40,866 nucleotides of DNA from Candidatus Poribacteria bacterium (GTDB lineage: Bacteria > Poribacteria > WGA-4E > WGA-3G): the NCBI GenBank assembly GCA_003635305.1, contig PYJE01000112.1:7614-48479 (forward strand), given 5' to 3'. The notes beneath the pieces are model-generated. The model worked only from the letters and a program-made list of their open reading frames with translations, ran no database searches and had not been told where the DNA came from. Shown piece by piece: positions 21,025 to 39,462 of this stretch. The translations under genes were made by a program, and so were the position numbers. The stretch's first letter is position 1, and each line of letters opens with the position of its first letter.

Positions 21025-21091
21025 GCGAAACCGCCGCCAATTTCCGTAACGCGCGGGACAGGCCCGCGCAATCTCTCAACCGAACCGAAAA

Positions 21092-22789: not shown

Positions 22790-23725
22790 CTAACCCGCTT
22801 CAAACAGACGCGTTTGCGACGAATACTCCTCAATCCTTTCGTTAGCGAGCGCGATATACTTTTCCTCAACGTCATAACCGATATAGTGCCGCCCGGCTTT
22901 CAACGCGCTCAAGCAGGTTGTCCCACTGCCACAAAACGGATCCAACACGACATCGCCTTCAAACGTATACAACTGAATCAGGCGGTGCGGCAACTCTTCC
23001 GGAAACGGCGCGGGATGCCCGATGCTTCTCGCCGAGGCTGCAGAGAAAGTCCAGACACTTTTCGTCCATTCCAAAAAATCCTCTTTGCGGATGGAGTTCG
23101 GTTTGCCGTTGCGTTTCCGCGAGAACGTATCCTTAGAAAAGACGAGGATGTATTCGTGGATATCCCGCAGCACCGGATTCGCCGCTGACATCCAACTCCC
23201 CCATGCCGTTGATGAGCCCGCGCTTGAACCTTTGTCCCAGATGAGCTCCCCGCGCATATAGTAGCCAATCTCCAGCATATCTTCGATGATATAGTTGTGC
23301 AACGGAATGTAGGGTTTCCTTCCTAAATTCGCGATATTAATGCAGGCTCTGCCGCCTGTCACCAATGTCCGATACGTCTCGGCGAAGACGGCCCTAAGCA
23401 GCTCCCGATACTCCGCCAGCGATAAATCGTCGTCGTATTCCTTCTTCGCGTTATAGGGAGGCGAGGTTACCATCAGATGGACGCTTCCGTCGGGAATTTC
23501 GGTCATCTGCTCGCTGGTTTTGCAATAGAGGCGGTTTAGCGTTTCTGCCGGAATCGGGTTTTCTATCCAGGTGTCGGGTTCTGTCAGTTGCTGTCCTGCG
23601 TAAAGTTGGCTATTGTAAAACGCGCTGGAATCGTGCGCGACTTTTTTCGGCATTCCGAACGCGCTGGTTTGGGTGCCGCGCTGTTTTGAGTTTGGATTGG
23701 GGTTGTTCATAGTTTTCTGAGTCAT
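22790..23725 (-). CDS. Site-specific DNA methyltransferase (N4-cytosine/N6-adenine family), solo
   Basis: VTSPPYNAKKEYDDDLS catalytic motif and DPFCGSGTTCLSALKAGRHYIGYDVEEKY SAM motif; ORF is open to 23800 through a repeat. Confidence 0.88.
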   Translation of the reverse strand: MTQKTMNNPNPNSKQRGTQTSAFGMPKKVAHDSSAFYNSQLYAGQQLTEPDTWIENPIPAETLNRLYCKTSEQMTEIPDGSVHLMVTSPPYNAKKEYDDDLSLAEYRELLRAVFAETYRTLVTGGRACINIANLGRKPYIPLHNYIIEDMLEIGYYMRGELIWDKGSSAGSSTAWGSWMSAANPVLRDIHEYILVFSKDTFSRKRNGKPNSIRKEDFLEWTKSVWTFSAASARSIGHPAPFPEELPHRLIQLYTFEGDVVLDPFCGSGTTCLSALKAGRHYIGYDVEEKYIALANERIEEYSSQTRLFEAG

Positions 23726-23757
23726 CTCATTGAGCCGTGCGGTACCACCCTTGGAAC

Positions 23758-23835
23758 GTAGGGCGGGGGCCTGTCCTCCGCCATGCTGCGGTTTGTTCAT
23801 GAATCAACGCTTGCGAGGGACAGGCCCTCGCGCTG
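23758..23835. repeat. Two palindromic repeat cores in opposite orientation between the MTase and VWA genes
   Basis: gtagggcgggggcctgtcctccgcc (23758-23782) and gcgagggacaggccctcgcgctgcg (~23813-23835). Confidence 0.85.
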
Positions 23836-24952: not shown

Positions 24953-25450
24953 TTACCGTCTCTTTTTTTGGAAAAGAATGCCCGCGAGATTCCGCTCCCT
25001 ACCGCACCGGTCTGTCTGAACCGTCAACCCTCCACCAAAGGACACTTTGAGGCCTTGTTTTTTCTTCCTCGGGTTTGTCCACTTAATACCTCTGCCATGG
25101 AAAAGAATTGGAACGTAGATGGGTTTTGACCGTGGCAAGGTCGAAACAATTTGGCGGGCGAAATTCAGACTATTTTCTGTCTTTTCAATTACGTCCGATT
25201 CGGGAGCTTTGCCGCTCTTGAGTTCAATGGTTGCCACAAAGAGGAAACTCTGATCCCTAAAGAAGAGTAGCCGGTCGCACCGTTTCTCAGTCTTTTTGCG
25301 CGAATCAAACTCCGTTTCCAGATTGACGACAACTAGCTCTCTTGGCAAGCCATCCATGTCAACCTTGCAACCCTCTCCGCCACACGAAGTGACAAGACTC
25401 TCTTTGTTAAATTGCGCGCTGATGTCCTCAAGCGCTTTACGCTCATTCAT
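24953..25450 (-). CDS. Small PD-(D/E)XK-nuclease-like protein, cassette copy A
   Basis: MNERKALEDIS...KRCDRLLFFRDQSFLFVATIELKSGK...NFARQIV...LFHG...RCGRERNLA; homologous to 38953-39462; ATG lies inside the upstream ATPase 3' end. Confidence 0.7.
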   Translation of the reverse strand: MNERKALEDISAQFNKESLVTSCGGEGCKVDMDGLPRELVVVNLETEFDSRKKTEKRCDRLLFFRDQSFLFVATIELKSGKAPESDVIEKTENSLNFARQIVSTLPRSKPIYVPILFHGRGIKWTNPRKKKQGLKVSFGGGLTVQTDRCGRERNLAGILFQKKRR

Positions 25451-26951
25451 GCGACTGATTATCCTCCGTTTGAACAAGCCAGTTTTGGAGGCGTGCCGAA
25501 CGATTGTAGAGGTCTGACGCTACGTCAATGTATTCCTCCGGATCTACGCCATCAACGCGATTGTATTCAATCTCCGTGACGATTCCATCGGGTTGAAAAC
25601 GCCAGACACCGACCTCTTCTTTTTCAAGCGTTACCGGTGATTCGCCGTAAGGTTTGCCTAACTTTTCATCCAACTCTCCCTCACGAATGAGGTTTCCGAT
25701 TTCTTCAAGGAAGCCGCCGCTGTGCGTTGTGACTACCACGCGCACCCCGGCTTTCACGAGGCGCGCGAGTGCTACCGCTACTTCGGGCTGCGCACCGGGA
25801 TGCAAATGCGATTCCGGTTCCTCAATGATGAGCGTATCGCCGGGGCTGATGATACCGCGGATAAATAGGACCAGCGGCGCGAGTTCGGATACCATAGAGG
25901 AGGCGTTGCTCAGGCGAATCTCCTCTTCCATTCCTCGTGGACGATAGAGGAATTGCGGATATCCACTCGGTGAAGGTTTCATGATTACCTCCCCTGCAAG
26001 CACATCATTTTCCAAAGCCTCGGCAATAGCAACCATGTCATTAGCCGGTTCTTTATGTGGACTATAGAGTATGAGGTTTTGCAGGAAGTCTGCAACCCCG
26101 GTTGAAAATGTTGGAACTTCAGGTAAGCGTTCAAACCCCGCGCGAGTGGAACGTGCCACAAGCGAACTTGCGATGACTGCTTGACCTTGTAGGATTCCAC
26201 TGCGATTAGCGGGTAGGTAAAACGGCTCTCCTGAATCTATGATAGGACTACCGAGAGGATTGCGTCTGATAGGACTATCGTGACGGTAACTACGCGATTC
26301 AAAGTGTGGAGTCTTGTCCAACCCCGGCGCATACTCAGAGCGAAGGGGGGCATCTCCGTTGATGGCTCCATGGACAGTGACATCTGATTCGGCAATCTGC
26401 ATGTTAAAGTTCCAGTGAAGTAAATCTTCCTCGCTTACTTCCACTTTGATGGCAGTGTCATGGCGATGCCCTTTGACTGAGTGTCTCATCTGCGAAACAG
26501 ACTCAAGATCGAAGCAGGTTTCAAATTCCTCCCTGAATCTTTGGGGAATGTTGAAATTTGATTCAATCTCCGCGCGGAGTTCCTGTGGTAGATGTGAGAA
26601 CTTTAACGGCTTCTCCGCCGTTTTTAGTTTTTCAAATACGGCGTAAAGCTTCTCGTCGCGACTATTGCCTCGCAAAAAATGGTTGGAATCTAATAATGCT
26701 CCCCGCCTAACGCGAGATTGCCAAGGAGAGAAAACCTCAATCTGTGGGAAAGGAATAGGTGGAAAACCAACAAAACTCCGGTGCAACGTATAAAGCAGCG
26801 TGGCGAAATAGGTTTTCCCAGTGTTACTCGGACCGACAAACACTGTCAGTGGACGCAAGTCAACGGTGCCTTCCACAATCGGACCGAAATTCCGCACGGC
26901 GATTTTGACGTTCGGATGTTTGGGGGCATCGATGGTTCTTATCTTTTTCAT
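25443..26951 (-). CDS. AAA/OLD-like ATPase, cassette copy A
   Basis: Walker A GPSNTGKT, Walker B DTLIIEEPESHLHPG, H-loop VVTTHS; VRNFGPI...LRPLTVFVGPSNTGK. Confidence 0.88.
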   Translation of the reverse strand: MKKIRTIDAPKHPNVKIAVRNFGPIVEGTVDLRPLTVFVGPSNTGKTYFATLLYTLHRSFVGFPPIPFPQIEVFSPWQSRVRRGALLDSNHFLRGNSRDEKLYAVFEKLKTAEKPLKFSHLPQELRAEIESNFNIPQRFREEFETCFDLESVSQMRHSVKGHRHDTAIKVEVSEEDLLHWNFNMQIAESDVTVHGAINGDAPLRSEYAPGLDKTPHFESRSYRHDSPIRRNPLGSPIIDSGEPFYLPANRSGILQGQAVIASSLVARSTRAGFERLPEVPTFSTGVADFLQNLILYSPHKEPANDMVAIAEALENDVLAGEVIMKPSPSGYPQFLYRPRGMEEEIRLSNASSMVSELAPLVLFIRGIISPGDTLIIEEPESHLHPGAQPEVAVALARLVKAGVRVVVTTHSGGFLEEIGNLIREGELDEKLGKPYGESPVTLEKEEVGVWRFQPDGIVTEIEYNRVDGVDPEEYIDVASDLYNRSARLQNWLVQTEDNQSHE

Positions 26952-27165: not shown

Positions 27166-27216
27166 GCCAAAATTCACTTTTAGGAGATTCATGTTCTCCT
27201 CATTAGGTTGAGTGTG

Positions 27217-27433
27217 GCGAGGGACAGGCCCTCGCCCTACAGGTGCGCGGGATGCAGGTGGCTTGGCGAGGGACAGGCCCTCGCCATACGGATTAGCGAA
27301 AGTTGATGCTTGGCGAGGGACAGGCCCTCGCCCTACGGGTGCGTGGGATGCAGGTGGCATGGCGAGGGACAGGCCCTCGCCCTACGAATTAGCGAAAGTT
27401 GATGCTTGGCGAGGGACAGGCCCTCGCCCTACG
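27217..27433. repeat. Array of 5 palindromic cores with alternating spacers (higher-order ~96-bp unit)
   Basis: gcgagggacaggccctcgcc(c/a)tacg at 27217, 27266, 27313, 27362, 27409 (spacing 49/47/49/47). Confidence 0.95.
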
Positions 27434-27452
27434 GAACCAAGACGTTATTCCC

Positions 27453-30400
27453 CTAACGCATTGTCACGCGCGCTTGTTTTTCTAACTTCCGGCGGAGGAC
27501 GATACCCCACTGCCCTACTACCCACAGCGCGCTCCCGTCTTTCGCACGCGTGATGACGTAGAGGGCATTGTCAATATCGGTATGCTCCTGCTCCCACGTC
27601 TCACCGCTATCGGTTGAATGGAGAATTAGCCCCTTTTCGCCGACGACATAGAGCTCGTTTTCGGAAAGTGCCAAAATGCCGTGCAGCGTTTTGGTAGTCC
27701 CGCTTGATTTCGCTGTCCACGTAAACCCACCATCGGTGGTTTTCAGGACGATGCCGTGTAGTCCTACCGCCCATCCCTTGCGCTTGGCAATAAAGGAAAC
27801 CGCGTTCAGATCATAGCCAGTCTGCGTTTCGTGGAATCGCCAATATTCGCCGCCGTTGATGGTGCGTTGGATGATGCCGCTATGTCCCACCGCCCAACCG
27901 AGGGGAGCGAACTTCATGTCAATATGCATCAGGTCTTTGCCTGTAGTGGTGCGTTGCGGTGTCCACGTCGGGCCTCCATCTTTATTATGGATGATTTGCC
28001 CATCGCTGCCGGCCGCCCATCCTTCGGAGAATTTGCCGAAGTCAATGGCGTTCATCGCAAAACTGCGAGGCGGATCCCCCTCTATAAACGGCGGTCTTTC
28101 CGGTGTATCACCCGCTGTCCACGCCTGTCCATCAGTGGTATACAGCACCGTTCCATCGCGTTGCATTGCCCATCCCCACTTCGGTTCGAGGCTGGTAAAG
28201 TGCACCCCGACGAGGCGTTGGCGCGTTTGGCTCCGCAGCGATTTCCAGTTTTCGCCGCCATCTTGCGTTTCCAGAAGCACGCCGCTATCACCGGCGATCC
28301 AACCGTGCTGTTCATCGTAGAAGAGGACATCACGGAAGTTATCCACCTGCGCTTCGCCGAGTTGACGTTCCCAGGTCTGCCCGCTATCTGCGGTGTGGTA
28401 AATCTTCCCTGCACTACCGACTGCCCACGCGTGTTCAGCGTCTAAGAAATAGACGCTGGCAATGTCCTGTCCGCCGCGTCGCCGCCTTTGCGGTTCAGGA
28501 GGAGGGGCTCCCATGTCTCGATTTTCGGTAGGAGAGACTTCCGCTTGCGCCTTGTCAGGTGGAAGTTCCCCTTCCGGCGCGAAGCGTCCGGGACGTTGCG
28601 TTTGGGAACGGAGTTGCCTTTGGATTGCATCTGCCGGTGCTTCGTCGTATTGAAGGGTGGGGCCTTCTGGTTCCTCGTCTGCAGCATCGCGAGGGACAGG
28701 CCCTCGCGCTACATCACCGAAGGCACCATTGGCATCGCGAGGGACAGACTCTCGCGATACGTTATCGGGGGTGTCTTCGGGTTGTCCCATCGCGAGCATT
28801 TCGCTGGGGATGGAGACAGGGATTGCCCTCCAACTTTCACCTTGATTTTCGGTGATGTAGGCGGTGCCGCCCGCGCCGAATGCCCATGCATTTGTATGTG
28901 AACGGAACGTCACGCGTCGGATACCGCGCGCGCCCGGTTTCGCCGTGCGCAACTTCCACGTCTCACCGCCATCGGTTGTCAACAGCGAATTGCCATCCCC
29001 CAAAACTACCCAGCCGTTCATCGCATCCGCGAAATGGACAGCGGCACCGACATGGTTCGTCTTCGCCTGAATTTTCCAATAGTCGCCGCCATCGACGGTG
29101 TGGAGGATAAAGCCGCCATCTCGCCGTTGCGGCGTGACTGCCCAGCCTTCCTGACTGTTGATGAAGTGGATATCCGAGATGGGTTGCATCGTCGTGCCGG
29201 TTTTCTGGAGTTTCCATGTCTTGCCGCCATCGGTGGTGTGCAAGGTTTGCCCGATGTCCGCACCGAGCCAGCCTTCTTGTGGATTGAGGAATTGCACCGT
29301 GCTGATGCCGCGCAGGTTTTGCACCGTCTTTCGGATAACTTGCCACGTCTCCCCGGCGTTTTCTGTGCGGAGCAAAATACCGGGACCGAAAATCCAGCCG
29401 TGTTTCTCGTCAATGAATTCGACATGGCGCAGATTTTCATTGATGCCGCTATGCTGCGGCAGCCACGTTTTTCCGCCATCGGTGGTATGCGCGATGACAC
29501 CGCTTGAACCGACTGCCCAACCGTTCTGTGCATCGACGAAATGCGTATCGGAGAAATTCGTCTGCCACGTGGCTTGACGGATGATATCCCAATGATAGAC
29601 GACCGGGGTGAGCGGTTCCTCTTCCGCCGCTGCTTCCGCCACTTCCTCTGCGACAGGCGGCAGTTTCGCCGGGAGTTCTGCCTCTTCTACAGAATACCGC
29701 ATCGCAATGCCGCCCTTGCCTACCGCGACAACTCCCTGCGGAGAGAGTGCCAATCCGTAGAGATCGTTGTCGGTGCCGCTCTCTTGCAGTTCCCACTTCG
29801 CGCCGCCATTCGTCGTGGTGAGCATCACGCCGTTATCACCGACAATCAGGCCGTGCTGCGTATCGGCAAAATAGAGTTTATTTAGGTTTTCTTGCGTGCC
29901 ACTTCGTTGGAAGTTCCACTTCTCCCCACCGTTTTTGGTGAACAGAATCTCGCCGAATTGCCCGACAATCCAACCGGTGTTTTCATCGGCAAAATAGACA
30001 GCGTAGAGCTCGTTGTAGGTGCCGGTGGTTTGATGCCGCCAAGTGAGTCCACCGTCGCGCGTAGTGAGGCAGATGCCGGGCCATCCGATTGCCCAGCCTC
30101 GCTTCTCGTTAAGAAAGTAGACACCTTTGAGCATGTGGAATTCGCCGGGGGATTGTTGCACCCACGTTTCGCCGCTATCTGCGGTGTGCAGAATCGTGCT
30201 GAGGTCTCCGACAATCCATCCTTTTTGCGGGCTAATAAAATGGACAGAACGGAGGGTATAGCCGCCGCCGCCAGACTGACGTTCCCAGTTCGCGCCGCCA
30301 TCGTTGGTATGCACGATGAGCCCGCGTTCGCCGACGGCCCACCCGTGTTTATCGGTGGCAAAATAGATGTTCCAGATGCCGTCCCAGATATCGGTATCAA

Positions 30401-31520
30401 GTTCGTTCCACGTTTGTCCGCCGTCGTTACTCATCGCCATTGTGCCCCGCTTACCGACAGCAATTGCACGGTTCGCATCGGTAAATTGGACATTCTGCAG
30501 GTCATTCGCTGTTGTGCCACTACTCATCGTCCATGTCGCGCCTGCATCTTCGGTGTGCAAAATCGTGCCATACCAACCGACTGCCCATGCTTCTTTGCGG
30601 GAAGTCCACTGCACTGCGGTGAGATTATTTTCAGTGCCGCTATCAATTAGCTGCCAATTATCGCCGCCATCTTCGGTGCGCGTGATAAACCCGACATCCG
30701 CAACGCCGATGCCGTAATTCTCATCGGTGAAGTGGATGCTGTTGACGGTATCGCGGACATGTCCGTTGATGAGTGGTATTCGGCTGTCTTGCCGTTCCCA
30801 GGTTGCGCCGCCGGTAGTCGTGTGGAAAATCGAACCGTCGCTCCCGGCAATCCAACCTTCATTGTCGCTAATGAAGAAGATTTTCTTGTTATCGTTTATC
30901 AGCCGGTCGCGTTCGCCATCAAAGCGGTTGCTCTGTTCGCGCCATGCTTTGCCTGCAGTTTCGGTATAAAAAATCCGGTCATATTCGCCGACAACCCAGC
31001 CTCGCGAATCGTTAACGAACCAGATGCCGTTGAGGGGGAATTCGCTGACGTATTCGTATCGGTACCACTGTTTTCCGCCGTTTTCGGTATAAAGGACATC
31101 GGCATCTTCACCGACAATCCAACCTTCTTTAGAATTGGCGAAGAAGACATCTCGGAGCATGGCATACGTGCCGCTCCGCTGCAGCGTCCAGTGTCTGCCA
31201 CCATCATCTGTCGTAGCGATGAGGCCTTCGTCGCCGACGGCCCATCCATACTGCGCGTTGGTAAAGTAGACTGCCTTGAAATCGCCGGTGATGTCGGTTT
31301 CCTGTTGCTGCCACGTTTTTCCGCCGTCTTTTGTGTGGATGATGAGTCCTTCCAAACCGACAATCCATCCCAGTTTTGCGTTGACGAAGTGGATGTCGGT
31401 AAAGTGCGTTTCCCAGTCTGCCTTTCGCGTCGCTTCTCTCCGGACGCATCCGTTGAGCACGGTGAGTGCGCATAGCAGGAGCGCGATGGCGATTGGCGTT
31501 GCATAGTTTTTAGGTTTCAT
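27453..31520 (-). CDS. Giant lipoprotein with many Ycf48/BNR-type repeats
   Basis: MKPKNYATPIAIALLLCALTVLNGC lipobox start; dozens of GWAVG..G.I.HT.DGG.TW..Q.SGT repeats. Confidence 0.85.
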   Translation of the reverse strand: MKPKNYATPIAIALLLCALTVLNGCVRREATRKADWETHFTDIHFVNAKLGWIVGLEGLIIHTKDGGKTWQQQETDITGDFKAVYFTNAQYGWAVGDEGLIATTDDGGRHWTLQRSGTYAMLRDVFFANSKEGWIVGEDADVLYTENGGKQWYRYEYVSEFPLNGIWFVNDSRGWVVGEYDRIFYTETAGKAWREQSNRFDGERDRLINDNKKIFFISDNEGWIAGSDGSIFHTTTGGATWERQDSRIPLINGHVRDTVNSIHFTDENYGIGVADVGFITRTEDGGDNWQLIDSGTENNLTAVQWTSRKEAWAVGWYGTILHTEDAGATWTMSSGTTANDLQNVQFTDANRAIAVGKRGTMAMSNDGGQTWNELDTDIWDGIWNIYFATDKHGWAVGERGLIVHTNDGGANWERQSGGGGYTLRSVHFISPQKGWIVGDLSTILHTADSGETWVQQSPGEFHMLKGVYFLNEKRGWAIGWPGICLTTRDGGLTWRHQTTGTYNELYAVYFADENTGWIVGQFGEILFTKNGGEKWNFQRSGTQENLNKLYFADTQHGLIVGDNGVMLTTTNGGAKWELQESGTDNDLYGLALSPQGVVAVGKGGIAMRYSVEEAELPAKLPPVAEEVAEAAAEEEPLTPVVYHWDIIRQATWQTNFSDTHFVDAQNGWAVGSSGVIAHTTDGGKTWLPQHSGINENLRHVEFIDEKHGWIFGPGILLRTENAGETWQVIRKTVQNLRGISTVQFLNPQEGWLGADIGQTLHTTDGGKTWKLQKTGTTMQPISDIHFINSQEGWAVTPQRRDGGFILHTVDGGDYWKIQAKTNHVGAAVHFADAMNGWVVLGDGNSLLTTDGGETWKLRTAKPGARGIRRVTFRSHTNAWAFGAGGTAYITENQGESWRAIPVSIPSEMLAMGQPEDTPDNVSRESVPRDANGAFGDVARGPVPRDAADEEPEGPTLQYDEAPADAIQRQLRSQTQRPGRFAPEGELPPDKAQAEVSPTENRDMGAPPPEPQRRRRGGQDIASVYFLDAEHAWAVGSAGKIYHTADSGQTWERQLGEAQVDNFRDVLFYDEQHGWIAGDSGVLLETQDGGENWKSLRSQTRQRLVGVHFTSLEPKWGWAMQRDGTVLYTTDGQAWTAGDTPERPPFIEGDPPRSFAMNAIDFGKFSEGWAAGSDGQIIHNKDGGPTWTPQRTTTGKDLMHIDMKFAPLGWAVGHSGIIQRTINGGEYWRFHETQTGYDLNAVSFIAKRKGWAVGLHGIVLKTTDGGFTWTAKSSGTTKTLHGILALSENELYVVGEKGLILHSTDSGETWEQEHTDIDNALYVITRAKDGSALWVVGQWGIVLRRKLEKQARVTMR
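28687..28762. repeat. Two palindromic repeat cores inside the Ycf48-repeat CDS, in frame
   Basis: gcgagggacaggccctcgcgctac and gcgagggacagactctcgcgatac, 48 bp apart; encode VARGPVPRD and VSRESVPRD on the minus strand. Confidence 0.9.
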
Positions 31521-31581
31521 TGGTTCCCTCCCTGTTGTTAAATAATTCAATTCCATAACCAGAGAACGGCCTGTCTCTGAT

Positions 31582-32439
31582 TCAATACCCGCTGTTACTC
31601 CCAAAAAGTCCTGAGAATGCAACCGCGGTGCCCATTGCGACGATGACTGGCAGTGCGATGCATGCTATCTGGATGGGGGCAGATTTTCCTCTGCCTACCC
31701 ACGCCATCGCCGGTGCAACGGCTAACAGAACCGCGCTCGCCGCTGGGACTTCCGCATAGAAATAGCCGTTTAACCACAACCCGACGAGTAGGTATGCGAC
31801 AGCTGGCATAAAAGAATCGGGCAAGGCGGCAGCGGTGCCGAAAAATCGCGGTAAGAGAAGCATCGCTATCCAAATGGCGGCGAGGATTGCGACTAAAACG
31901 GCGGCGTGTTGTGCGAGTCGCATGCTTCCCGAAAGTGCGAGGATGAGCGCGCTTCCACCGGCTATGCCGAAAAAGACAAACGGTTGCGCTGCACCAGTCG
32001 GTAAGAGCGTCGTGCCTTTCTCCACCGATGTAAAGAAAAAGAAAATCGCCGCGGCGAGGCATGCCCACCAAATCAGTTCTTCAAGAGTGCCCCATGTATA
32101 CTTAAACTTCGCGTTGAGAATGAGGCGTGGGATAACGACAGCAAGCGCGAGACGCGCGAACAGACGGAGCTGGGCCGGTAAAAACAGCACTCCTTCCATA
32201 ACGAATGCGGCGATGGCAAGGTAGAAAAGCCACTGCGTCCCTTCCCGCGGTGGCAGCTGCAGTCTGCCTTCTATGCCAAGATACCCGATGATATATCCAC
32301 TGGCCAAAGCGAATGCGGCGAGGCGCGCCCGGGACTTTGTGCTGATGGATTGCGGCAACAAGGACGCAGCTGCGAAATTGCTTCCACAGACGATGGCTGG
32401 CAAAATCAGTCCGAAGAAGATGGCCTTGAGAGATAGCAT
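31582..32439 (-). CDS. Polytopic integral membrane protein of unknown function
   Basis: MLSLKAIFFGLILPAIVCGSNFAAASLL... multiple hydrophobic segments. Confidence 0.65.
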   Translation of the reverse strand: MLSLKAIFFGLILPAIVCGSNFAAASLLPQSISTKSRARLAAFALASGYIIGYLGIEGRLQLPPREGTQWLFYLAIAAFVMEGVLFLPAQLRLFARLALAVVIPRLILNAKFKYTWGTLEELIWWACLAAAIFFFFTSVEKGTTLLPTGAAQPFVFFGIAGGSALILALSGSMRLAQHAAVLVAILAAIWIAMLLLPRFFGTAAALPDSFMPAVAYLLVGLWLNGYFYAEVPAASAVLLAVAPAMAWVGRGKSAPIQIACIALPVIVAMGTAVAFSGLFGSNSGY

Positions 32440-36828: not shown

Positions 36829-36855
36829 AAGCACCGATGAGTATTGGAGGCGATT

Positions 36856-37461
36856 ATGGCAACCGCTGCTGCTTATGCTTACATCACGCCTGAAGAATAT
36901 CTGGACTTGGAGCGCGAGGGCACGACGAGAAACGAATACCGCGATGGGGATATCTTCGCGATGGCGGGTGCGAGCCGAGCACACATTCTTATCACGGCGA
37001 ACATCGCGGGGGAACTCCGTTCCCGGTTGAAAGGCAGAACTTGTGAAGTCTACCCGATTGATATGCGGGTGCGTGTGAGACAGACAACGCTATTCACTTA
37101 TCCGGATGTTGTTGTCGTATGTGGTGAACCGCGCTTTGAGGATGACGTATTTGACACGCTTCTCAATCCAACGCTTATTGTAGAGGTGCTGTCGCCTTCG
37201 ACGGAGGCTTATGACAGGGGTGAGAAATTTGCGCGCTTTCGGCAACTCGCATCGCTGCGGGAATACGTTCTCGTCGCGCAAAAAGAGGTGCATGTAGAAC
37301 GTTATCTGCGGCAAGGCACACAGTGGCTACCGAGCGAATTTCGTTCTCTTGACGATGTGCTGCGGCTTCTTTCCATCAATTGCGAGTTGCCGCTACGTGA
37401 GATTTATGAGCGCGTCACATTTCCTAACAGCGGCGCGCAACCAAGATTGGATATCCTCTGA
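36856..37461 (+). CDS. Uma2-family (DUF820) PD-(D/E)XK-type protein
   Basis: YITPEEYLDLEREGTTRNEYRDGDIFAMAGAS..H..I...PDVVVVCGEP...NPTLIVEVLSPSTEAYDRGEKFARFRQLASLREYVLV. Confidence 0.9.
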   Translation: MATAAAYAYITPEEYLDLEREGTTRNEYRDGDIFAMAGASRAHILITANIAGELRSRLKGRTCEVYPIDMRVRVRQTTLFTYPDVVVVCGEPRFEDDVFDTLLNPTLIVEVLSPSTEAYDRGEKFARFRQLASLREYVLVAQKEVHVERYLRQGTQWLPSEFRSLDDVLRLLSINCELPLREIYERVTFPNSGAQPRLDIL

Positions 37462-37487: not shown

Positions 37488-38966
37488 ATGACGAGCAAAA
37501 TCAGCGACATTCAGCAGCATCCGAACGTCGAAATATCGGTGAAGAATTTCGGACCGATTGCCGAAGGCACTGTTGACTTACGTCCGTTGACAGTATTCGT
37601 CGGGCCGAGCAACACCGGCAAGTCCTATTTTTCGACGTTGGTGTATGCGTTGCAGGGTGTGTTCAAAAGTTTTTCTAGTTTTGTGTTTTTCGCGGCATTG
37701 ATAAAGGAGTTACGGTACCGGCTTTTTTCGGCTGCTTCAAGTCCTGAAAAGGAAAAAATGGAGCGTCTGTTGAAAAAGTTAATCACTGCAGAGGGCCCGT
37801 TCAAATTGTCAGAGCTGCCGAGTGACACGCGCGCCCTTTTACAAAATATTGTTAAGCATTCGGAGACGTTCGGGGACGAATTCCGGGGCACGCTCCTAGC
37901 AGAGTTGAAAAACTGTTTTGATGTAAAGTCCGTCTCAACCTTAGTCCGGTTGAATGAGGAACGGATTGCTAATGAACTGATGGTTTCTCTGAAAGTGAGG
38001 GAGGAACATCAAACGCTTTGGAACATCAGAATGGCTGTTTCCGATTCCGATGTTATTTTCGACTGGGGTGTCCCTGACCGGATGACTCTCACCTCGGTGG
38101 GGCGAGTTGAGTTGATGGATGCCGGTTTCGCGAAGATCGAACGGTGGACAGAGCCAGTGGGTAGGCGGTATTATCTCCCCGCTGTGCGGAGCGGCATCAT
38201 GCAGAGTCATCGAGTTATGGCAAGTTCGCTTGTAAAGCGCGCTACCCGGGACGGTTTAGAGTGTTATCCAGAGGTTCCTACCTTTTCAAGTGTCATAGCC
38301 GAGTTGATGGAGAAAATCATCCGCTACGAGGAAGACGCGAACGCTGATGGTGATATGAGACACCTTGCAGAAACATTGGAATCTGATGTGCTTTCTGGCG
38401 AGATACGCTTGAAGCCATCCGCGAGTGGGTATCCCGATTTCCGCTACCGGCCACAAGGGACAAAAGCGGATATGCAGATCGGACAGGCCTCGTCCATGGT
38501 ATCTGAGCTCGCGCCGTTAGTGCTGTTACTCCGCAGCGGCATCAAACCGGGTGATACGCTCATTATTGAGGAACCAGAAGCACACCTGCATCCCGGTGCC
38601 CAAACCGATATAGCGATTACCCTAGCGCGCTTAGTCCGTGCCGGTGTGAGAGTCATCGTGACAACGCACAGCGATTGGCTCCTTGAACAGATAGGTAATC
38701 TCATCCTTGAAGGCGAGTTGGAGAAGCAGGTTGGAGAAACCAATGCGCCGCCGGTTTTTCTTCACAAAGAGCAGGTTGGATGCTGGCACTTCCAGAAAAA
38801 CGGAAAAATCGAAGAGATTGCGTACGACCGGATGGATGGCGTAGAGCCACAGGAATACGCGGACATCGCAGAAAGCCTCTATAACCGTTCAGCGGAACTC
38901 CACAACCGCCTTGAGGAATTGCGGTTGAATACGGAGACAGTTCAGGGAATTGATGGAAAGAAGTGA
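37488..38966 (+). CDS. AAA/OLD-like ATPase, cassette copy B
   Basis: HPNVEISVKNFGPIAEGTVDLRPLTVFVGPSNTGKSYF; DTLIIEEPEAHLHPG; VIVTTHS; paralog of 25443-26951. Confidence 0.88.
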   Translation: MTSKISDIQQHPNVEISVKNFGPIAEGTVDLRPLTVFVGPSNTGKSYFSTLVYALQGVFKSFSSFVFFAALIKELRYRLFSAASSPEKEKMERLLKKLITAEGPFKLSELPSDTRALLQNIVKHSETFGDEFRGTLLAELKNCFDVKSVSTLVRLNEERIANELMVSLKVREEHQTLWNIRMAVSDSDVIFDWGVPDRMTLTSVGRVELMDAGFAKIERWTEPVGRRYYLPAVRSGIMQSHRVMASSLVKRATRDGLECYPEVPTFSSVIAELMEKIIRYEEDANADGDMRHLAETLESDVLSGEIRLKPSASGYPDFRYRPQGTKADMQIGQASSMVSELAPLVLLLRSGIKPGDTLIIEEPEAHLHPGAQTDIAITLARLVRAGVRVIVTTHSDWLLEQIGNLILEGELEKQVGETNAPPVFLHKEQVGCWHFQKNGKIEEIAYDRMDGVEPQEYADIAESLYNRSAELHNRLEELRLNTETVQGIDGKK

Positions 38967-39462
38967 AATGCTTGAACACATTAGGAAGGCGATAGGTTCA
39001 GAAAACCTGACTCCGCTGCGGAGCCGAGCTGGATGCCGTGTAGATATGACAGGTGCGCCTTCTCCGCGAGTTGTAGTCGACGTAGATGTGGCGTTCCCCG
39101 CGCATGGAGTCGCCGGGCAGAAATGTGACTATATTCTCTTTTATGTTGATGCGGCGCAAAATCTTGTCGTCGTTCCGATAGAACTCAAGCGCGGCAGTGT
39201 TAACATATCCCAAGCATTGAGCCAGTTACAAGGCGGCGCAGATTTCGCGGCGCGCTTCGTCCCGGCGCGGCGGAATTGTCATATTATCTGCCGCCCGCTG
39301 CTCTTCCACGGCGGCCGTGTTCATCACCTGAAGCAGAAGCGGAAACGGAGAAACGAACGGAGCCGCGCCACCGTTCGCTTCCGTGGCGGCGACTTTCACA
39401 TTAAAACGGCGCGCTGCGGCAGAACGCGCAATTTAGCCAATGGGTTGTTCGCGGAAAGTTAA
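38953..39462 (+). CDS. Small PD-(D/E)XK-nuclease-like protein, cassette copy B (ATG 38953 or 38968)
   Basis: GCRVDMTGAPSPRVVVDV...KCDYILFYVDAAQNLVVVPIELKRGS...QALSQLQGGADFAARFV...LFHGG...RCGRTRNLA. Confidence 0.7.
   Translation: MERSEMLEHIRKAIGSENLTPLRSRAGCRVDMTGAPSPRVVVDVDVAFPAHGVAGQKCDYILFYVDAAQNLVVVPIELKRGSVNISQALSQLQGGADFAARFVPARRNCHIICRPLLFHGGRVHHLKQKRKRRNERSRATVRFRGGDFHIKTARCGRTRNLANGLFAES

Follow-up and report, generated by a model that had tools for sequence, protein, structure and literature searches.

The anti-phage system PD-T4-4 originated from anti-phage selection (Vassallo et al. 2022, PMC9519451). For WonAB, defence requires both genes, the motifs of the ATPase and K71 of the nuclease; the system shuts down translation with the chromosome left undegraded, its ATPase is required for toxicity, and its authors assign it, together with PD-T4-4, to a broader family in which ABC-ATPase sensors are paired with nucleases (PMC12137116). 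PDC-M47 is a PADLOC candidate, for which no paper reporting a test was found in the literature. To our knowledge, the activating trigger of systems of the PD-T4-4/WonAB type is not known.

We analyzed a stretch of 40,866 nt from Candidatus Poribacteria bacterium, hereafter the window (assembly GCA_003635305.1, contig PYJE01000112.1, forward-strand positions 7,614-48,479). The initial annotation had described a PD-(D/E)XK-like core in two small proteins of the window, copies A and B, and this description needs to be extended to the operon, in which each nuclease gene lies second, behind that of its ATPase (Table 1). The nuclease adjoined an ATPase gene in 76 of 77 loci, the lone exception lying at a contig edge, and in every locus with sufficient room the ATPase gene was located 5' of the nuclease gene and on its strand, the two genes overlapping in most cases. 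Clustering of the neighbors gave only syntenic genes (metabolic, ATP synthase and the like) and no recurrent third operon gene, and no cognate methylase recurred beside the pairs. The Poribacteria genome of the window contains six copies of the nuclease family, and the nucleases of copies A and B shared 33% identity over 168 aa (E 1e-26, a single BLASTP comparison).

Table 1 Features of the two ATPase-nuclease loci and neighboring genes in the window
Feature	Position	Strand	Basis or remark
N6/N4 DNA methylase	22790-23800	-	PF01555, 3e-46; two genes from copy A; no visible restriction partner
Copy A gene 2, PD-(D/E)XK-like nuclease	24953-25477	-	Probable start ATG 25450, overlaps ATPase stop; E85-x-K87 at 25225-25217
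Copy A gene 1, ABC/OLD-type ATPase, 502 aa	25443-26951	-	46% identity with copy B ATPase
1389-aa protein with many BNR/YCF48-type repeats, 18 stretches	27453-31622	-	Just upstream of copy A
Uma2 family protein, PD-(D/E)XK-fold family	36844-37461	+	Pfam PF05685, 2e-33; 26-nt gap before copy B operon
Copy B gene 1, ABC/OLD-type ATPase, AAA_15/AAA_21, 492 aa	37488-38966	+	Pfam AAA_15, 1.3e-20; PADLOC PD-T4-4_A, 2.2e-32; AlphaFold2 model matches PtuA, GajA, OLD and SMC heads
Copy B ATPase insert, Walker A to ABC signature, about aa 61-335	37668-38492	+	Proposed sensor; variability measured in relatives and mapped onto copy B
Copy B gene 2, PD-(D/E)XK-like nuclease, 169-170 aa	38950-39462	+	Probable start ATG 38953, overlaps ATPase stop
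Copy B clade cysteines C29, C59, C156	39034-39036, 39124-39126, 39415-39417	+	
Copy B first catalytic acids D46, D60	39085-39087, 39127-39129	+	Family alignment
Copy B E78-x-K80, (D/E)XK motif	39181-39189	+	Family alignment, 56/56 each
Copy B Q92	39223-39225	+	Family alignment; K in copy A

The Uma2 gene was rejected as an operon partner of copy B and the DNA methylase as a partner of copy A, since neither recurred beside other copies. The window also contains a 19-nt hairpin-forming repeat, GCGAGGGACAGGCCCTCGC, with five copies in a row at 27212-27439 and others near 21046, 23808, 28684, 28732 and 35977, some of the window copies being slightly different. The 4.35-Mb genome holds 581 exact copies (300 and 281 by strand), against 0 for the reversed control. 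This repeat looks like a REP-type element, often arranged in short tandem runs between genes.

The translation initially given for 39100-39258 was exact and lies within the nuclease frame of copy B. D-x(16-17)-E-x-K is common to both copies, together with the quoted motifs GC.VDM.G.P..VVV, CD..LF, IELK.G, LFHG and RCGR.RNLA. This spacing alone is little proof because D-x(16,17)-E-x-K also appeared in 2% (copy B) and 11% (copy A) of same-composition shuffles, and it is conservation within the family that carries the case. Relatives were gathered from 59 related genomes and a named genome collection, and 56 distinct proteins were aligned. In copy B numbering, E78, K80, G82 and C29 were invariant, column 60 was acidic throughout (D in 53 proteins, E in 3), and a third acid (E/D) occupied column 46 in 55 of the 56, where D46 of copy B aligned with the invariant D of plasmid and phage relatives. 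The downstream Q, which had been counted as part of the shared core, did not stand: copy A has K, and with Q in 38 and K in 18 of the 56 proteins this column is not a fixed part of the nuclease core. Four further columns (24, 29, 59 and 156) were all Cys in 46 of the 56 nucleases; copy B retains three of these cysteines, with R in place of the one at column 24. C59, which precedes the catalytic D, is the only one of these clade cysteines common in the plasmid relatives. The four cysteines may form a metal or redox site.

An AlphaFold2 model of the nuclease, built with 30 relatives, was predicted with a pLDDT of 90.6 and a pTM of 0.87. Its elements follow the order alpha 4-15, beta 40-44, alpha 45-51, beta 61-66, beta 72-80, alpha 86-101 and beta 112-120. 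The alpha-beta-beta-beta-alpha-beta core is present, with an extra short helix (45-51) between strands 1 and 2; the lack of this core, or of D/E/K conservation in the family, had been named by the initial annotation as evidence against its proposal, and both the core in the model and the three residues in the 56-protein alignment were found. D60 comes immediately before strand 2, and strand 3 ends with E78-x-K80, as is standard for PD-(D/E)XK proteins. The C-terminus is modeled as a beta part followed by a final helix (161-167), and RCGR.RNLA covers the turn into that helix. In Foldseek searches the matches were weak: the five best in the PDB were all to PD-(D/E)XK nucleases (EndoMS/NucS, BsmI; best E 0.05), and those in a viral library included Mrr, UL24, VRR-NUC and PD-(D/E)XK proteins (best overall 0.006). 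These named entries are taken to be PD-(D/E)XK folds. Conservation, predicted fold and the profile alignment described below thus support the identification of both small proteins as real PD-(D/E)XK-type nucleases, with predicted activity.

Both ATPases matched AAA_15 and the PADLOC model PD-T4-4_A (2e-32 for copy B, 1e-29 for copy A), and a match to the PARIS AriA model was also obtained (3e-22). The model of the copy B ATPase retrieved PtuA (5e-10), GajA (3e-8) and OLD (5e-8) in Foldseek, and SMC heads as well. Pfam gave no Toprim match in the ATPase, and no HNH match was found in the partner nuclease with Pfam, PADLOC or NCBIfam. For the nuclease, NCBIfam yielded no credible match and phmmer against PDB sequences only chance matches. 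With the ATPase as bait, relatives were reached on plasmids and in one Vibrio temperate phage, each consisting of an AAA ATPase followed by a "hypothetical" protein of 176-210 aa, while tblastn of the nuclease against plasmids gave no match; the phage relative adjoins a phage repressor and an integrase. Among viral contigs, 127 pattern matches were obtained, none of which encoded a relative. The plasmid and phage partner proteins matched the PADLOC models PD-T4-4_B or PDC-M47B, and have in common an invariant acid, a nearly invariant CD, (D/E)xK and Q. Aligned with these partners by hhalign, the profile of the Poribacteria family scored 97% (E 1e-10) over 93 columns; the acid, CD and (D/E)xK fell in matching columns, and the C-terminal part lay outside the alignment. 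Single nucleases of the window matched the PADLOC nuclease models weakly (E 0.002-0.04).

The nuclease was found in 60 of 85 genomes of the phylum (43 of the 56 good ones), and the carriers, each with as many as six or seven matches, belong almost all to one order. Copy number ranged from 0 to 7; several genomes had none, for some of which assembly gaps are possible. Truncated or split copies were observed in seven genomes, which suggests turnover by decay. In the named genome collection, 39 of 42 loci were titled Poribacteria, and the other three came from bins of Roseovarius, Defluviicoccus and Caldilineaceae. These three clustered with one Poribacteria member in both the nuclease and the ATPase trees, possibly reflecting transfer between sponge symbionts or misbinned sponge-metagenome contigs.

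Across species, the pairs recur at corresponding chromosomal positions, with neighbors mostly 74-95% identical (a few 64-66%), and they adjoin metabolic genes, outside clear mobile elements or defence islands. In five Poribacteria genomes, F1 ATP-synthase genes are located within a few kb of a pair, a setting of unusual stability for what is presumed to be a defence system. At one spot compared across four species, the N-terminal (Walker A) part of the ATPase was 71-81% identical and the signature/Walker B core 86-94%, against 21-31% for the first insert. The corresponding values were 60% against 88% in the ATP-synthase-side clade and 56% against 96% in family f4, so that over the three groups of syntenic or close relatives the mean identity of the first insert was 25-60% and that of the core 88-96%. 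For the closest pair among the four species, DNA identity was about 80-90% outside the gene but only 45-66% within it, between about +210 and +1110, and codon positions 1 and 2 of the insert were 51% identical, compared with 57% for four-fold silent sites of the neighbors. In this pair, the ATPase insert has diverged at the pace of silent DNA. Either positive selection or recombination may account for the divergence, and the insert is probably a rapidly evolving sensor, with a conserved nuclease under its control. At two spots nuclease identity was down to 42% and 34%, with the ATPase still at 65% and 61%. In the nuclease tree, the two proteins from the first spot belong to separate main clades, whereas their ATPases are sisters, suggesting occasional exchange of the nuclease.

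Based on these comparisons and on analogy with studied systems, we consider it likely that each copy is an abortive-infection system of the PD-T4-4/WonAB kind, that is, an ATPase-controlled nuclease with the insert as sensor. The pairing in 76 of 77 loci, D/E60 and E78-x-K80 in all 56 proteins, the profile kinship with PD-T4-4, the fast insert and the defence provided by the studied relatives argue for such a role, whereas the stable places beside metabolic genes and the weak PADLOC matches of single proteins speak against it. The OLD/PtuA-like ABC ATPase would work as a dimer controlling the small PD-(D/E)XK nuclease, and the rapidly evolving insert that separates Walker A from the signature motif would detect an infection cue. 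ATP binding or hydrolysis could then switch on the nuclease docked at the conserved C-terminal extension of the ATPase, and cleavage of nucleic acid would halt growth and abort phage infection. By analogy with WonB, RNA would be a somewhat likelier target than DNA.

Because the positions of the pairs are stable, the main rival to defence is a housekeeping ATPase-nuclease acting in chromosome or cell-cycle processing, for which the archaeal OLD protein Cran1 is a precedent (PMC12796447). Such a role would fit a place kept across several species between mostly conserved flanking proteins and the presence of the nuclease in most good genomes of the phylum, but an insert that diverges at silent-site pace, a copy number of 0-7 with broken and truncated copies, and relatives on plasmids and beside the repressor and integrase of a temperate phage make it a rather improbable explanation; moreover, the nuclease of Cran1 is of the Toprim type and not PD-(D/E)XK. 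We regard as unlikely, yet worth keeping in view, a restriction-type system in which the nuclease cuts incoming phage DNA with the host unharmed. The fold is common to many restriction enzymes, a weak HSDR_N match was obtained and a DNA methylase gene lies near copy A, but no methylase stands beside most copies, and expression of WonB spares chromosomal DNA and stops translation (PMC12137116).

Strict pairing and overlapping genes would also be expected of a plain toxin-antitoxin pair with the nuclease as toxin and the ATPase as antitoxin. The make-up and size of the pairs are unlike those of the usual ones, and the need for the ATPase in WonAB toxicity rules out simple neutralization there (PMC12137116), leaving this explanation with very little probability. 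That the motif arose by chance in a non-nuclease accessory protein is hardly credible: the spacing does occur in 2-11% of shuffles and the Foldseek matches in the PDB all had E > 0.01, but E and K are invariant, an acid is always present at D60, homologues of PD-T4-4_B/PDC-M47B carry the same residues, and the AlphaFold2 model has the element order of the fold.

What is new here is the fixed-locus pair with a fast insert, together with the four-cysteine marker of the clade. Within the preferred reading of ATPase-controlled abortive infection, we tentatively raise a more specific proposal, of which we are ourselves doubtful: the pairs could be lineage-specific, multi-copy immune genes at fixed loci, with an arms race swapping or diversifying the sensor insert while the nuclease core and, in the ATPase, the core and C-terminal end are conserved, and with the four cysteines forming a new metal or redox site. 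If this were true, the Poribacteria pairs would be chromosomal receptor genes with swappable sensing parts. The copy numbers show that uncultured sponge symbionts are heavily invested in this kind of system. The series of same-locus orthologues, in which the insert is replaced but core and nuclease are kept, indicates which part is the likely sensor and enables the construction of chimeras; the conserved active site and the cysteine set are likewise offered for study.

Compared with known systems, the pairs resemble PD-T4-4 in the order of an ATPase and a PD-(D/E)XK protein of about 200 aa, in the strong ATPase HMM match and in the acid-CD-(D/E)xK register, but the PD-T4-4 partners lack C24/C29/C156 and reside in mobile elements, and its nuclease models match single proteins only at about 1e-3. 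Among the PADLOC nuclease models, PDC-M47 matched the family best (23 of 30 members, down to 1.3e-7), and its member on an Annamia plasmid matched the Poribacteria family profile at 1.7e-8, although this member has neither the clade cysteines C24/C29/C156 nor the RCGR.RNLA end. Septu PtuAB, OLD, Gabija and PARIS share the ATPase fold by Foldseek and the AriA model match, but their effectors are HNH or Toprim, unlike the PD-(D/E)XK-like protein here. HSDR_N and other PD-(D/E)XK nucleases have the D...ExK core in common with the family (Pfam match 0.006-0.02, below the Pfam cut-off), whereas the helicase and restriction subunits of the HSDR_N setting are absent. WonAB is alike by description, as a two-gene system of an OLD-ABC ATPase and a small nuclease with an essential K (PMC12137116), but it is located on the V. 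cholerae WASA-1 prophage, in an unrelated host. As judged from profiles and analogy, and for WonAB from that description, the pairs are a large, many-copy and divergent branch of the PD-T4-4/WonAB kind in uncultured sponge-symbiont bacteria.
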